Assembly: GCA_018303115.1 (NCBI GenBank)
Contig: JAGVYT010000030.1
Coordinates: 1-34,437 of the forward strand
DNA: 34,437 bases
Direction of reading: 5' to 3'
DNA from: Candidatus Woesearchaeota archaeon
Lineage (GTDB): Archaea; Nanobdellota; Nanobdellia; Woesearchaeales; UBA10216
Part shown: positions 6,181 through 27,635 of the stretch, piece by piece
Layout of the letters: every line of letters starts with the position of its first letter
How positions within the stretch are numbered: the first letter of the stretch is position 1
Made by a program: the position numbers and the translations under genes
The notes under the pieces: generated by a model
The model's input: the letters and a program-made list of their open reading frames with translations, nothing else
What the model was told of the DNA's origin: nothing
The model's database searches: none

Positions 6181-6190
6181 GATTTATAAA
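6181..6190 (+). promoter_or_regulatory. TATA box of the structured RNA
   Basis: GATTTATAAA lies about 27 bases before the predicted 5' end of the folded RNA (near 6212), the normal archaeal spacing. Confidence 0.55.
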
Positions 6191-6213
6191 CCTGTCGGAA
6201 GTTCTTTTACATC

Positions 6214-6393
6214 AATAGCGGGATAGGGCAGCTAGGAGTGCCCGATGAAGCTCAAGACCTAGAGCTGCGGAAGGCTCATAAACACTTCTGGTTGAGGGAC
6301 CCATAGGAAACATAAAGCAACAGCTTATGTTTATGAATCGGTGGTTCAAAACGTTTTGAACGCTGAAAGTCCGCCTCCCGCTATTCCTTTTTT
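6214..6393 (+). ncRNA. Structured non-coding RNA of unknown class (about 175 nt)
   Basis: The region has no good reading frame but folds strongly. The ends pair perfectly: AATAGCGGGA (6214-6223) with TCCCGCTATT (6376-6385), followed by CCTTTTTTT, a terminator-like U-run. Inside are GGGCA/TGCCC (6226-6230 with 6239-6243), AGCTC/GAGCT (6249-6253 with 6262-6266), GCGGA/TCCGC (6267-6271 with 6370-6374), a long AAACATAAAGC/GCTTATGTTT hairpin, and the palindrome GTTCAAAACGTTTTGAAC. The two first hairpin loops are complementary (TAGG with CCTA), suggesting a kissing interaction. A TATA box at 6181-6190 gives independent transcription. Kissing hairpins beside a helix made by the 5' and 3' ends recall the SRP RNA Alu domain, but the conserved SRP helix 8 is not evident. 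GAAAGTCCG near the 3' end recalls RNase P RNA but in the wrong place. Class unknown. Confidence 0.6.
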
Positions 6394-16573: not shown

Positions 16574-19072
16574 ATGCTAGCCTACAGGAAAATATTTTCA
16601 GAGCTTTTTGAAGAGGTCCGTAAGGTCGTTGTTGGACAAGACAGGGTTATAGAGCAGATAATGGTTGCTGTGCTTTCTGACGGGAACGCCCTGCTTGAGG
16701 GCTATCCCGGCCTTGCCAAGACGCTTACAGTCCGCACCTTGGCAAAGGTGATGGACCTGAGGTTTAGCAGGATACAGCACACTCCTGATTTGATGCCTTC
16801 CGACATTACAGGAACGTATGTTATAGAGGAGCATGACGGGCACCGCGAATTCAAGTTTCACCCAGGCCCTATATTTGCGAACATAGTCCTGGGCGATGAG
16901 ATAAACAGGGCAACCCCGAAAACCCAGTCTGCTTTGTTGGAGGCAATGCAGGAAAAGCAGGTTACTGTTGGCAACACAACTTACAAGCTTGACAGGCCCT
17001 TTTTCGTGCTGGCAACTCAGAACCCCATTGAGCAAGAGGGCAGCCTGGCACTCGACCAACCCGTATTTGTAAACGGCTCCCTCAAGACAGGCAGACAGTT
17101 GCTAGCAGATAAGTGCAAATGCCTTAAGGAGGACGAAAAAGGGATTAAGCTTTACGATATAGATGCCTGGACTTTTTCCCTTACAACAGAAGGACGGCTG
17201 GAAAAGCGAAAGTGCCTGCTTTACACTCTTCCATACGCTGGCGAAATGGTTACCATCACTACCAGAACCGGTAAAAAACTCAAAGTGACTAAGAATCATC
17301 CCTTCCTTGTTAATGAGAAAGGCATTCTTGTATGGAAAAAGGCAGAGGAACTAACTAAACAGGACTTTTTGGTTAATCCTGCCGCCCTTCCAATGCATAT
17401 CGCTTCTGTTATGAACCATGAGGAAGCAATTTCTCGTATGAAGCAAAAACCGCTCCTTAAGGAAATACCATTTGATGCAGATTTTGCTTTCTGGAGCGCC
17501 TTTCTTCTTTCAGACGGATATATAGGCAAGAATTGCGTGGAGGCATGCCAACGCAATTACCCTGAAGTCATTGACAGGTTTGTTGAAGTCTCTCGAAAAT
17601 ACGGTTTCAACCCAAAGGTTTCTGAAAATAGAGGATGCCGTTATGCTAGGGTATACTCCAAACCGCTTGTTGAATACCTCTCCATTCGTTTTGGCATAGG
17701 GCACGGAAAAGACAAGGGCATACCTTCATGGTTTGTGAGTTTGCCTGAAGACATGAACAGGGAGTTTCTGCGCACGTTTATCTCACTTGAATCTTCGTTG
17801 CGTGACAACAGAATTACGTTTACGCAGAAACTTCAGGAAAACGTTAACATCATCTCTTATATGCTGCTGCGTGAAGGCATTATCTCGTGGATACGCCATG
17901 ACGGCAGAATTTTCAGGCTTAAGATACAAGGAAAAGATGCCATAACCTATCTCAGTAAAGTAGGATGGATTTCTAAGGAAAAGGCTGCAGGCATTGATAT
18001 GGCCCGCATTGTTAAATCAAGCTTCCGAGTAGTTCCAGTTAACAGGAAATACTTGCTAAGGCTTGTTGAAATTCTCGGTTTGAACAGCTTCCACACATTA
18101 AAAGTAAGAAAGGACATAACTTCACGCCAGTGGTACGGCAGCTATAAGGGAATAAAGGAAGGCGAAACTGTAATGAGCGTATCTTCCCTGCAGAAACTTG
18201 TTGCAGACGTAAGACTGGAGTTGACATCAAGAGAGGAAGCAGCCTTCACGGATTACCTTGAGGCAAATCCGCGAAGCTTTTCTGCTGGGATAGGATTGTC
18301 CATGACAACTATAGCAAATTCTTTGGATATTTCAAAAAATCAAGTTTGGAGTCTTTATAAAGGGAACGCAACACAGCAGGCTCTCCAAATAAAGTCTTTC
18401 TTAAGAGAGCAGTATACTGTGCGCCTTGAAGAGGCTAAGCAGCTTCTTAGCTACTTTGAAGGACTCCTTAGCGAGGACGTATTCTACGATAAGATAAAAT
18501 CCATTGAATATTCAATCTCTGAGGGGATGGCGTTTGGGCTGACCGTGCCGAGTCTCCAAAACTACATTGCTGGTTTTGGAGGATGCGGTATAAATCATAA
18601 TACATACCCGCTTCCCGAAGCCCAGTCTGACCGCTTTTTGCTTAAGATAAAGGCGGAATATCCAACTTACGACGAGGAGCTTGAGATTGTGAACAAGTAT
18701 GCGTATGAGTATTCTGAAAGGCGCCTTAAGGTTGTCATGAGCAAGAATAATTTGATTTCACTGCAGCAGCTTGCAAGGCAGGTTCCTATAGCCACTGACT
18801 TGAAGCAGGAAGTTGTTAAGATGGTTACTGTCACAAGGAACAAGAAGGACATAATCGAGTATGGCGCATCCCCAAGGGCTTCAATAGGGCTTGTTGTTGC
18901 GGCAAAGGCGCGGGCTTTGGTCAACGGAAGAAACCATGTCAGCGCTGATGACATCAAAGTGATGGCGTATCCTGTGTTAAGACACCGTCTGATACTTAAT
19001 TTTGAGGCTGAGAGGAAGGGCATGACCACCGATGATGCGATAAAGATGCTTGTAGATAAAATACAAAAATGA
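16574..19072 (+). CDS. moxR: MoxR-family AAA+ ATPase interrupted by an intein
   Basis: MoxR ATPases are chaperone-like AAA+ enzymes that act with vWA proteins. The extein has Walker A GYPGLAKT (residues 43-50), Walker [10 protein letters not shown] with Asp108/Glu109, the [13 protein letters not shown] segment, sensor 1 [12 protein letters not shown] and sensor 2 [10 protein letters not shown]. Between EQEG (156) and [12 protein letters not shown] (677) lies a 520-residue intein, so the spliced enzyme would be about 312 residues, the normal size. The insertion site is a highly conserved ATPase motif, the usual choice for inteins. ATGA at 19069-19072 couples it to the DUF58 gene. Without splicing the ATPase would be inactive. 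Confidence 0.93.
17042..18601 (+). other. Intein with LAGLIDADG-type homing endonuclease domain
   Basis: Residues 157-676 of the MoxR frame interrupt its conserved EQEG/TYPLPEA motif. Block A begins with Ser157 ([12 protein letters not shown]). Block B is TKNHPFLV with Thr239 and His242. Blocks F and G are [15 protein letters not shown] and GCGINHN, ending in the His-Asn pair, and Thr677 is the +1 nucleophile. Hence Ser is residue 1 and Thr is +1, instead of the common Cys. The central region holds one good LAGLIDADG motif ([13 protein letters not shown], Asp314) and a weak second one ([12 protein letters not shown], Glu406 at the acidic position). All splicing residues are present, so it is probably splicing-competent; nuclease activity is less sure. 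Confidence 0.9.
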
Positions 19073-23226: not shown

Positions 23227-24434
23227 TCAAGATACGAATTCTGCTTCTATTCCTAAAGTGTGCATTTCCATAATTACGCAGTAAAGATTATGGCATATCA
23301 CTTTGCACAGAACCTCATTAACCTGTGCTGTCCATGTTTTGCTACGGACACAGTCGCCGAACTTGCTTTTAATCATGTGATTTGTGGCTTCAATATTGCT
23401 TCGTTTGTGGTAGTGCTGTAAAAACTCCTCATTGTTCAACATGAAGTAATGATACATTTTCTTCCAAAGCATACCGTTGCCTGAACTTTGACTATTGCTC
23501 TTGAACGGTATGAAGGCTTTTGCCCCCACGTCTTGAATGGCTTGCAGATTATCCATGCTCAGATAAGCCTTGTCAGCACTTACTTCTGCCATGTCAAAAT
23601 TTTCGGCAGTAGCCTTAACCAATTCAGGCAATTCGGGGCAGTCATTATCAAACTCGCTGGTAATCTTAACGCCGGTCACGATGTTGCTTTTAACGCCTGT
23701 CACAAAATGAGCCTTAACCCAACGCCTGCTACTTATTTCCTTACCATGTTTGAACGAATACCAACGCTGAAAGTTAGTCGTGCCAAAACCAGTAGAATCT
23801 ATGGCGAAATCGTGCTCAACAGTTCTTAAAGGCAAACTGGTAAGCGTCACCATTTGAACCAGCAAAGGAGTTAAGTCCTTTTTCTTGAAGTAGTCAAACA
23901 TAGTATTGTAAGGTATCCTTTTCGTTATTAACTCATGTTGCTGCGCTGCGGTCATATCGGTATTGAAGCGTCTGCCAGAAAAGGTTCTATAAACCTTGAA
24001 CACCATCGAAAAGACGGTATCGCCCAATGGTGCTGATGGTCTGCCGAAAGAATAAGCAGGGCTTCGGATGTTGCTTGTAATTCCTGAAAGCAGCTTCATA
24101 AACTGCTCTTTCTCTACCTGTTGGCTGATGTTGTAGTTGTGCCAATCTTGTGAATAGGTCTTGCGGACTGTCTTGGTTATAGTGATATTACCTTCCACAT
24201 CAACTTCCTTTGTTACTGTCAATTCTACCGCCCAAACGTGCTTACATTTTGATTTTCTCTGTTCATAATCTGGACAGGTGCAGCTCTGCCCCGAAACCGT
24301 TGCTAATGACCAAATAAGCCCCATTCCCGCTTTGTGAAGGGGACTGTCCAGCCCTTCTCGGTCTTCGTTATCCTGCTGGTCTTTGCTATCTCTACACCTT
24401 TCTGCTTCCTGACTTCAATTTGTTCCGGATTCAT
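23227..24434 (-). pseudogene. DDE transposase with N-terminal SWIM zinc finger, frameshifted
   Basis: The long frame (23227-24324) has a SWIM-type zinc motif (CTCPDYEQRKSKCKHVWAVE). It also has a DDE-type catalytic core: Asp in HDFAIDSTGFG, Asp in VSADKAYLS and Glu in RSNIEATNHM. The family's usual N-terminus is found upstream in another frame: ATG 24434 starts MNPEQIEVRKQKGVEIAKTS, with AGGTGAT as ribosome binding site. Dropping one T near 24337 gives VPSQSGNGAYLV, a typical segment of these transposases, and a second single-base change before CTCPDYEQ joins the long frame. Two frameshifts therefore inactivate it, unless they are sequencing errors. No convincing terminal inverted repeats were found; the stop lies only two bases from the neighbouring gene, so the insertion end probably overlaps that gene's 3' end or has been lost. 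Confidence 0.8.
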
Positions 24435-24807: not shown

Positions 24808-24886
24808 CCCACTGGACATTCCGCAAAGTTTTCAGCGATGACAACCCACTGGACACTGGACAAGTGCCCACCCAAACTATTTAAAT
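24808..24886 (+). promoter_or_regulatory. Repeated CACTGGACA motifs and TATA box before the methyltransferase
   Basis: CCCACTGGACA occurs at 24808-24818 and 24845-24855, and ACTGGACA again at 24855-24862. ACTATTTAAAT at about 24877 is the TATA box; its spacing fits transcription starting at ATG 24900. The repeats may be an operator controlling methyltransferase synthesis. Confidence 0.45.
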
Positions 24887-24899
24887 GAGGAAAGAAATA

Positions 24900-27635
24900 A
24901 TGGCACAAGCTGCAATTTCCCAGAAAAAAAGAAAAGAGGGCTTGGTGTTCAACGTGAAACCTTATCATCAGACAGTACTTGGAAAAACATTTTTTGGTGA
25001 TTGTTCTCAAGAAACTATCTTGCTAGAGAGAAATAGTTTAAGAACTTTTTTGAGTTCTTTAGAAACCGGACTAAGCATAAAGCCGAACGCTAGTTTTGCA
25101 ACTCTTGTAAACTTCTCAAATTATGAAAATCACCCGATTCACAGATGGTTTAAGTATAGGGAAGGTTATTCTATTAAGCTTGTCAAGCAGTTTCTCCAGA
25201 GAGACGAAACGTTAGTTTTAGACCCTTTTTGTGGTTCAGGCACGACACTTTTAGCTGCCAAAGAAGAGGGCTTATCTTCAATCGGATTTGACATTAATCC
25301 AGTTTCTACGTTTATTTCAGAAGTAAAAACTGCCGATTATTCTGAGGAGGATATTATAACCTTACGAAAATTGATTGGAAAGATTTTAAACATGAGTGTT
25401 GAGAATAAGCTAGACAAACCGGAACTTTCCATAATTGATAAGGTATTTAATGAAGAAATCTTGAATGTTTTACTCTGCCTAAAAGAAGCGATAAATGAAG
25501 TGAAGGAAAAGAAGCATCACGATTTTTTAAAATTAGGTTGGCTTTCGATTCTTGAAGAAGTTTCAAATGCTCGAAAAGAAGGAAATGGCATAAAATATAG
25601 ATTTACAAAAAGAACTCCAAACGGTTATGTCACGCTCCCTCAAAAGGAATGGGAAGAAAAAGCTTTTGGAAAACATAAGAAAAACTTTGTTTTTGATGCT
25701 TTGAAAGAGAAGTATAGTGAGATGTTATATGACATAGAACATAGTCGGTTTAAGACAACTAAAACTCTCATTTACCAAGAATCTGCTCTGGCGATTGATA
25801 AACACATAAAAAAAGGCACAATTTCCACAGTAATTTTTTCGCCCCCTTACGCTAATTCCTTTGATTATTTTGAGATATTTAAAGTAGAATTATGGATGGG
25901 TGATTTTGTTAAAAACTATGAAGAACTCAAAAATCTACGCAGAAAAGCATTAAGGTCAAACGTAAACAGTGAGCTAAATTCTTCTGGAACTATTAAATTT
26001 GCTGAATTAGACCTCCTTCTCTCCTTCTTAAAAGAAGATAAACTATGGGATGATAACATAAAAAAAGTTTTGTACGGTTATTTTACCGATATGAAAATAG
26101 TTTTAGAAAAAGCCTTTGAATGCCTAAAACCAAATGGTGAATGCGTAATAGTTGTTGGTAATTCTGCTTATGGCGGGGTAATAATTCCAACCGATGCTCT
26201 ACTTGCACATATTGCAAAAAAAATCGGTTTTGAAGGCGTAGAAATAAACGTTGCCAGACATTTAACAACAAGCTCACAACAAAAAGTAGAACTGACCACT
26301 CTAAAGGAACACTTAAGAGAAAGCGTTATCGTCATGAGAAAACCTTCTAAAGAATCTACATACACAAAAGTTGTGGAATTACCGCAATTTAGCATCCCTA
26401 AAGGGAAAAAATTCATAATCACCAGCAATAACGTTTCTTACCTTACTCATGTCATACACAAATACCCGGCAAAATTTATCCCACAGATTCCACGTTGGGC
26501 AATTTCAAAATATGCTTCAAGCGGCAAATGTATAGTTTTAGACCCTTTTTGTGGTTCAGGCACGACATTAGTAGAGGGCATCTTATTAGGGAACAAATCT
26601 TATGGGATTGATATAGACCCCCTTGCAAGACTAATAAGCAAAGTAAAAACAACCCACTTAGAAAAAGAACGATTAGATACAGCTATACAAGATGTAATAA
26701 ACAGATTAGGCATAAAAAAAACGGCAGAATTTAAGCCTAGCATTCCAAATCTTTCACATTGGTTTTCTAACGATGCCATAAAAAAATTGGGAATTATCAG
26801 AGATGTTATTGAAGAAAACAAGAGTGATAAGGATATTTATGATTTTCTCATAGTAGCTTATTCATCTATAATTCGGAGAGCTTCAAATGCTGATAATCAG
26901 TCACAAAAGACTTATGTTTCTCATACCAATATTAAAGAGCCAGAAGATGCTTTTGACTTATTCAAAAGAAAGTTAGAACAATATTCTGTTCGTTTACAAC
27001 AACTTTTTGAGTATGTTCCTCAAGGAGCAAAAGCACATATTCTGGAAAAAAGTAGTGATGCCAGAAATTTTTCGAGTCACTGGATTAAAACTGGTTGCCC
27101 AAAAGTGGATATTGCTATTACCTCTCCTCCTTATCTGAAAGCTGTGGATTATGTTTATACTCATATGGCTGAGTATTTTTGGATAGGTGACCTTTTTGGG
27201 CTTCAAACAATGAAGCAGCAAAACAATTCAGAGCAACAATATATGGGAACGAAGAGAGTTCCAGTAGCAGACTATTCTACTAGATTAGAAACAAATTATG
27301 ATTCTATTAACTTATTAACAGAACTGGTGTATAAGAAAAATAAGAAGTTTGCATACGTTTTAGCTAAGTTTTTTATTGATATGGAGATGAACATTAGAGA
27401 AGTGAGAAAAGTATTAAAGGATGGTGGACATTACATCATAGTAATAGGAAATAATAAGGTTGCTGGTGTGCCCATAAATTCAAACAAAATAATATCCGAA
27501 ATAGGCATTAGAAATGGTTTTGAATTAGAAAATATGTTTGCATACAAGATTAGGAATAGATATATGCGATTTCCACGTAAAGGAAGGGGTGGGCTTATAA
27601 CCGAAGACTGGATAATAGATTTGAGGAAAGCTTAA
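24900..27635 (+). CDS. DNA methyltransferase with two SPPY catalytic domains (probably N4-cytosine)
   Basis: The 911-residue protein holds two Rossmann methyltransferase domains in tandem. Domain 1 has the SAM loop VLDPFCGSGTTLLAA (Asp108) and catalytic FSPPYANSFDYFE (Ser314-Tyr317); domain 2 has VLDPFCGSGTTLVEG (Asp548) and TSPPYLKAVDYVY (Ser742-Tyr745). SPPY is typical of N4-cytosine methylases, and the motif I before motif IV order is that of the alpha/gamma type. A tandem enzyme could methylate both strands of an asymmetric site. ATG 24900 is preferred to 24885 because the TATA box is at 24877 and GAGGAAAG precedes it. It converges on the HNH nuclease gene with a four-base overlap, forming a type II restriction-modification unit. 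Confidence 0.85.
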   Translation: MAQAAISQKKRKEGLVFNVKPYHQTVLGKTFFGDCSQETILLERNSLRTFLSSLETGLSIKPNASFATLVNFSNYENHPIHRWFKYREGYSIKLVKQFLQRDETLVLDPFCGSGTTLLAAKEEGLSSIGFDINPVSTFISEVKTADYSEEDIITLRKLIGKILNMSVENKLDKPELSIIDKVFNEEILNVLLCLKEAINEVKEKKHHDFLKLGWLSILEEVSNARKEGNGIKYRFTKRTPNGYVTLPQKEWEEKAFGKHKKNFVFDALKEKYSEMLYDIEHSRFKTTKTLIYQESALAIDKHIKKGTISTVIFSPPYANSFDYFEIFKVELWMGDFVKNYEELKNLRRKALRSNVNSELNSSGTIKFAELDLLLSFLKEDKLWDDNIKKVLYGYFTDMKIVLEKAFECLKPNGECVIVVGNSAYGGVIIPTDALLAHIAKKIGFEGVEINVARHLTTSSQQKVELTTLKEHLRESVIVMRKPSKESTYTKVVELPQFSIPKGKKFIITSNNVSYLTHVIHKYPAKFIPQIPRWAISKYASSGKCIVLDPFCGSGTTLVEGILLGNKSYGIDIDPLARLISKVKTTHLEKERLDTAIQDVINRLGIKKTAEFKPSIPNLSHWFSNDAIKKLGIIRDVIEENKSDKDIYDFLIVAYSSIIRRASNADNQSQKTYVSHTNIKEPEDAFDLFKRKLEQYSVRLQQLFEYVPQGAKAHILEKSSDARNFSSHWIKTGCPKVDIAITSPPYLKAVDYVYTHMAEYFWIGDLFGLQTMKQQNNSEQQYMGTKRVPVADYSTRLETNYDSINLLTELVYKKNKKFAYVLAKFFIDMEMNIREVRKVLKDGGHYIIVIGNNKVAGVPINSNKIISEIGIRNGFELENMFAYKIRNRYMRFPRKGRGGLITEDWIIDLRKA

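Follow-up and report, generated by a model that had tools for sequence, protein, structure and literature searches.

A near-certain initiator tRNA gene with four predicted introns in a Candidatus Woesearchaeota archaeon

Reviews and the tRNAscan-SE 2.0 paper give three as the maximum number of introns in an archaeal transfer RNA (tRNA) gene (PMC4033280, PMC8450103, PMC3293823). The tRNA-Pro gene of Pyrobaculum islandicum, for example, is interrupted after positions 25 (25/26), 37 (37/38) and 56 (56/57), and the positions 29/30, 45/46, 53/54 and 59/60 are likewise already known in archaea (PMC4090602). Non-canonical introns have usually been linked to splicing endonucleases (EndA) of the (alpha-beta)2 and epsilon2 types (PMC4090602, PMC4033280). 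In Atabeyarchaeia and Freyarchaeia, a 2024 report describes introns in most tRNA genes, several of them in over half, often at non-canonical positions (PMC11291895). Split tRNA genes occur in Nanoarchaeum equitans, and a permuted initiator tRNA occurs in Thermofilum pendens (PMC4090602, PMC3218864). Here we analysed a stretch of 34,437 nucleotides (nt) from a Candidatus Woesearchaeota archaeon (contig JAGVYT010000030.1, hereafter the window), in which a highly structured RNA had been predicted. We found with near certainty an initiator tRNA gene that is interrupted by four introns of the archaeal bulge-helix-bulge (BHB) type, the splicing of which is predicted. As read from the sequence, positions 6217-6383 of the plus strand very probably encode the initiator tRNA-Met(CAU) of the cell in precursor form.

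A DNA search matched the 5' part of the RNA in 31 of 59 related genomes. In five relatives (L014, L016 and L018-L020), the same 5' motif opens an ordinary intronless tRNA-Met(cat), as called by ARAGORN, and comparison of the window with these intronless homologues resolved the locus into five exons and four introns. When the locus was aligned to the initiator consensus by dynamic programming, with introns allowed at any position, it scored 100.9, compared with a mean of 0.7 and a best value of 16.7 for dinucleotide shuffles (n = 120). The remaining stretches of the window scored 17.1 or less. Removal of the four introns (92 nt; Table 1) left a perfect 75-nt initiator cloverleaf, AGCGGGATAGGGCAGCTAGGAGTGCCCGATGGGCTCATAACCCATAGGTCGGTGGTTCAAATCCGCCTCCCGCTA, which ARAGORN identified as tRNA-Met(cat); the program made no tRNA call on the unspliced 167-nt precursor. 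All 21 stem pairs of the spliced sequence were formed around a CAU anticodon. The sequence also contained A1:U72 and the anticodon-stem pairs G29:C41, G30:C40 and G31:C39, and this first pair and three G:C pairs are features of archaeal initiator tRNAs (PMC6412873). Among 20 spliced homologues, the cloverleaf stems were 100% paired and covaried clearly. RNA-family and tRNA searches miss the gene because four small introns split it into five pieces.

A BHB motif has a 4-bp core helix formed by exon and intron, with a 3-nt bulge carrying a splice site on either side. The splice boundaries were identical when the alignment contained no structural term. At these structure-free boundaries, 15 of the 16 pairs in the four BHB core helices were Watson-Crick; the four-pair core was complete in introns 2, 3 and 4, and intron 1 had three of four. 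The helix inside the intron beside the bulge was clear in introns 1 (5 bp) and 3 (7 bp), offset by 1 nt in intron 4 and weak in intron 2 (2 bp). For intron 2, a 1-nt shift of the boundary is possible from the sequence alone, and the register was chosen by the BHB rule. The same pattern was seen in the relatives, where the full four-pair core was present at the sequence-derived boundaries of 59 of 123 introns, versus 9 of 738 shifted controls. Every 29/30 intron contained an internal helix of 4 bp or longer, placed in the expected register (26/26; 2% of shuffles). This helix was counted by script because the MAFFT alignment misregistered it. We also observed a conserved GACCT in the intron-1 loop (6256-6260 in the window, and in many relatives), which is complementary to AGGTC in the variable loop of the tRNA.

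Table 1. Positions of the predicted tRNA exons, introns and associated elements in the window
Feature	Position	Strand	Remarks
TATA box TTTATAAA	6183..6190	+	From sequence; ~27-34 nt 5' of tRNA start; similar box ahead of most homologues
Exon 1 (tRNA 1-29)	6217..6247	+	Acceptor 5' strand, D-arm, start of anticodon stem
Intron 1 (29/30), 25 nt	6248..6272	+	Core helix CCGA/GCGG (3/4 pairs); intron helix AGCTC/GAGCT
Exon 2 (tRNA 30-37), 8 nt	6273..6280	+	CAT anticodon at 6276-6278
Intron 2 (canonical 37/38), 18 nt	6281..6298	+	Core helix CTCA/TGAG
Exon 3 (tRNA 38-46)	6299..6307	+	
Intron 3 (46/47), 30 nt	6308..6337	+	Core helix CATA/TATG; intron helix AACATAA/TTATGTT
Exon 4 (tRNA 47-59)	6338..6350	+	T-stem 5' strand, most of T-loop
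Intron 4 (59/60), 19 nt	6351..6369	+	Core helix TTCA/TGAA; T-stem serves as exon helix
Exon 5 (tRNA 60-73)	6370..6383	+	T-stem and acceptor 3' strands, discriminator A73; CCA not encoded
T-run, possible terminator	about 6388..6393	+	From sequence
Putative helix X, D-arm strand	6229..6240	+	Pairs with 6283-6294
Putative helix X, intron-2 strand	6283..6294	+	Pairs with 6229-6240

The original prediction, a structured housekeeping RNA gene that stands alone behind a promoter-like box of its own, agreed well with the sequence. A TATA box precedes the RNA, which lies between rnhB on the minus strand and a gene for a transglutaminase-domain protein on the plus strand, and its fold was more stable than that of 200/200 dinucleotide shuffles (z = -3.8). 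The individual helices were also present but acquired a different meaning. The 10-bp terminal helix AATAGCGGGA/TCCCGCTATT is now read as the tRNA acceptor stem extended by three flanking pairs. The two adjacent hairpins, GGGCA/TGCCC and AGCTC/GAGCT, correspond to the D-arm and the intron-1 helix, the long AAACATAA/TTATGTTT hairpin corresponds to intron 3, and the 18-nt palindrome GTTCAAAACGTTTTGAAC consists of the T-loop plus the beginning of intron 4. A proposed inner helix, GCGGA/TCCGC, would join the 3' end of intron 1 to the 3' strand of the T-stem and most likely arose by chance. The suggested TAGG/CCTA contact between the two hairpin loops was rejected as a conserved feature, with all 4 bp kept in merely 7 of the 26 genes that have a 29/30 intron.

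The stable fold, the promoter-like box, the T-run and the apparent kissing loops could together be taken as signs of a new RNA class, or of a rearranged RNA resembling that of the signal recognition particle (SRP) or of RNase P. We consider this extremely improbable. An Rfam scan of the RNA at gathering and permissive thresholds gave no family match, SRP and RNase P included, and the canonical SRP and RNase P RNAs of this genome (G000) sit elsewhere (G000:C43, 123.6 bits; G000:C3, 130.5 bits). The RNA does not resemble the SRP Alu domain, and GAAAGTCCG, previously likened to an RNase P motif, corresponds to the 3' splice region of the T-loop intron. The exons match the initiator tRNA along its whole length, and the intronless homologues, being ordinary tRNA-Met(cat) genes, contradict a new class. 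The idea of a divergent or rearranged housekeeping RNA was close, in that the RNA is a tRNA riddled with introns, and wrong as to its being an altered SRP or RNase P RNA. The compensatory changes by which the proposed helices were to be judged do exist, but in the cloverleaf stems and the intron helices.

Several points weigh against an initiator tRNA precursor with four BHB introns. The core helix of intron 1 contains an A.G mismatch, and thermodynamic folding of the precursor gives no preference for the BHB form in introns 1, 2 and 4. In addition, a second initiator gene could lie outside the draft genome, which is 96% complete. A decayed initiator pseudogene with inserted sequence, its working copy lying elsewhere, would fit a single gene broken four times, and up to 4% of the genome may be absent from the draft. 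This explanation is nevertheless very unlikely, since all 75 exon positions are intact, every stem is paired, and the introns follow the BHB rule. The initiator D-arm had one match in the genome, and no further initiator gene was found among the tRNA-family matches of the genome. The relatives, moreover, preserve an intact tRNA across differing sets of introns.

The named homologues come from Ca. Woesearchaeota genomes, most of them metagenome-assembled. Among 112 distinct initiator genes, 52 had no intron, 28 had one, 11 two, 13 three, 5 four and 3 five; the genes were picked by D-arm or intron-1 patterns, so these counts do not represent frequencies in the population, and some individual parses are doubtful (e.g. 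L151). Intron positions in these genes included 7/8, 13/14, 15/16, 29/30, 37/38, 43/44, 45/46, 46/47, 53/54 and 59/60. The predicted 7/8 intron of one initiator gene (L092; G162:C90) directly follows the acceptor 5' strand. In three relatives (L004, L005 and L012), an rnhB-like reading frame lies 3' of the initiator tRNA; the rnhB of the window is located upstream, on the opposite strand. With every stage from zero to five introns represented in one orthologous gene, intron gain, intron loss and splicing order become testable.

Other tRNA genes of the genome appeared to be interrupted as well. Only 15 tRNAs of this 96%-complete genome scored above the RF00005 cut-off, and most of its tRNA genes seem to escape standard searches. 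Brute-force decoding, which solved part of the other tRNA loci, revealed introns in the genes for Ile(UAU), Gln(UUG), Gln(CUG), Arg(CCU), Gly(UCC) and Leu(CAG), several of them at 59/60. A 59/60 T-loop intron ending in GAAAG|T seems common (L054, L058, L060, L063 and L067 of G000, and 6364-6370 in the window). The first of these loci (L054; G000:C14:14271-14375) appears to encode tRNA-Ile(UAU) and to contain two introns, at 37/38 and 59/60; this tRNA has been described as uncommon in archaea (PMC8450103). Because genes of this kind go undetected in standard searches, the number of tRNAs in these archaea may be greatly underestimated.

Elsewhere in the window, a MoxR-type AAA ATPase gene (16574-19072, plus strand) contains an inserted intein with a LAGLIDADG domain. 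A SWIM/DDE transposase gene (23227-24324, minus strand) adjoins a gene for a long DNA methylase (24885-27635, plus strand) with two methylase matches.

One EndA of 175 aa with both Pfam domains was found in the genome (G000:C6); among its relatives of solved structure are the N. equitans catalytic subunit (3iey_A) and the M. jannaschii enzyme (1a79). Because no second EndA subunit was detected in the genome, the enzyme would be a homo-oligomer of the alpha type. The strict BHB form of the window introns may explain why such a plain EndA suffices. The precursor would be transcribed from its own promoter and cut by EndA at the bulges of the BHB motifs, after which a ligase, presumably of the RtcB type, would join the five exons into the 75-nt tRNA, which delivers methionine to start codons.

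The 8-nt exon between introns 1 and 2 makes it unlikely that both BHB motifs form at once, as they overlap at G31 and C32. A possible solution was suggested by complementarity between the 37/38 intron and the D-arm (putative helix X in Table 1). This complementarity had a mean z of -2.75 in 26 genes with a 29/30 intron, versus 0.05 in 24 genes without one, and complementarity of the 37/38 intron to the acceptor and T-arm controls was near zero. Single-linkage clustering placed the 37/38 introns of the 29/30-bearing group in three clusters, so the D-arm signal may not stem from independent events and may in part reflect shared descent. In several relatives (e.g. L008, L011 and L106), helix X was predicted by folding to form together with the core helix of intron 1; the two were not predicted to coexist in the window. 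These findings suggest ordered splicing, in which intron 1 may be the first to go, released from a rod that keeps intron 2 paired to the D-arm; the RNA would then refold, and intron 2 would be cut afterwards. We tentatively propose, as an idea with rather less than even chances, that the woesearchaeal 37/38 intron has been selected to pair with the D-arm where a 29/30 intron exists. Helix X would open the D-stem, stack beside the intron-1 core and loop out the anticodon mini-exon. The two introns would thereby form a composite substrate, spliced in fixed order by a single alpha-type EndA.

The four introns found here, and the five in some relatives, exceed the stated maximum of three, with the intron-rich Asgard genes compared by description only. 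The gene concerned is one on which every protein start depends. The multi-intron tRNA genes of Thermoproteales likewise combine several introns per gene, including non-canonical positions such as 29/30 and 59/60. They reach three introns at most and are served by an (alpha-beta)2 enzyme, whereas the woesearchaeal initiator tRNA has four and the genome one detected EndA, apparently of the alpha type. A four-intron gene in a DPANN lineage with one small detected EndA bears on the view that non-canonical introns require enzymes of broader specificity, of the (alpha-beta)2 or epsilon2 type. As described, the tRNA genes of Atabeyarchaeia and Freyarchaeia are alike in having multiple introns and belong to a different phylum. 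Split and permuted tRNA genes, among them an initiator tRNA, are also disrupted archaeal genes restored by EndA. They differ in exon arrangement, as the five exons described here are all collinear within 167 nt at a single locus, which sets the gene apart from both the split and the permuted type.
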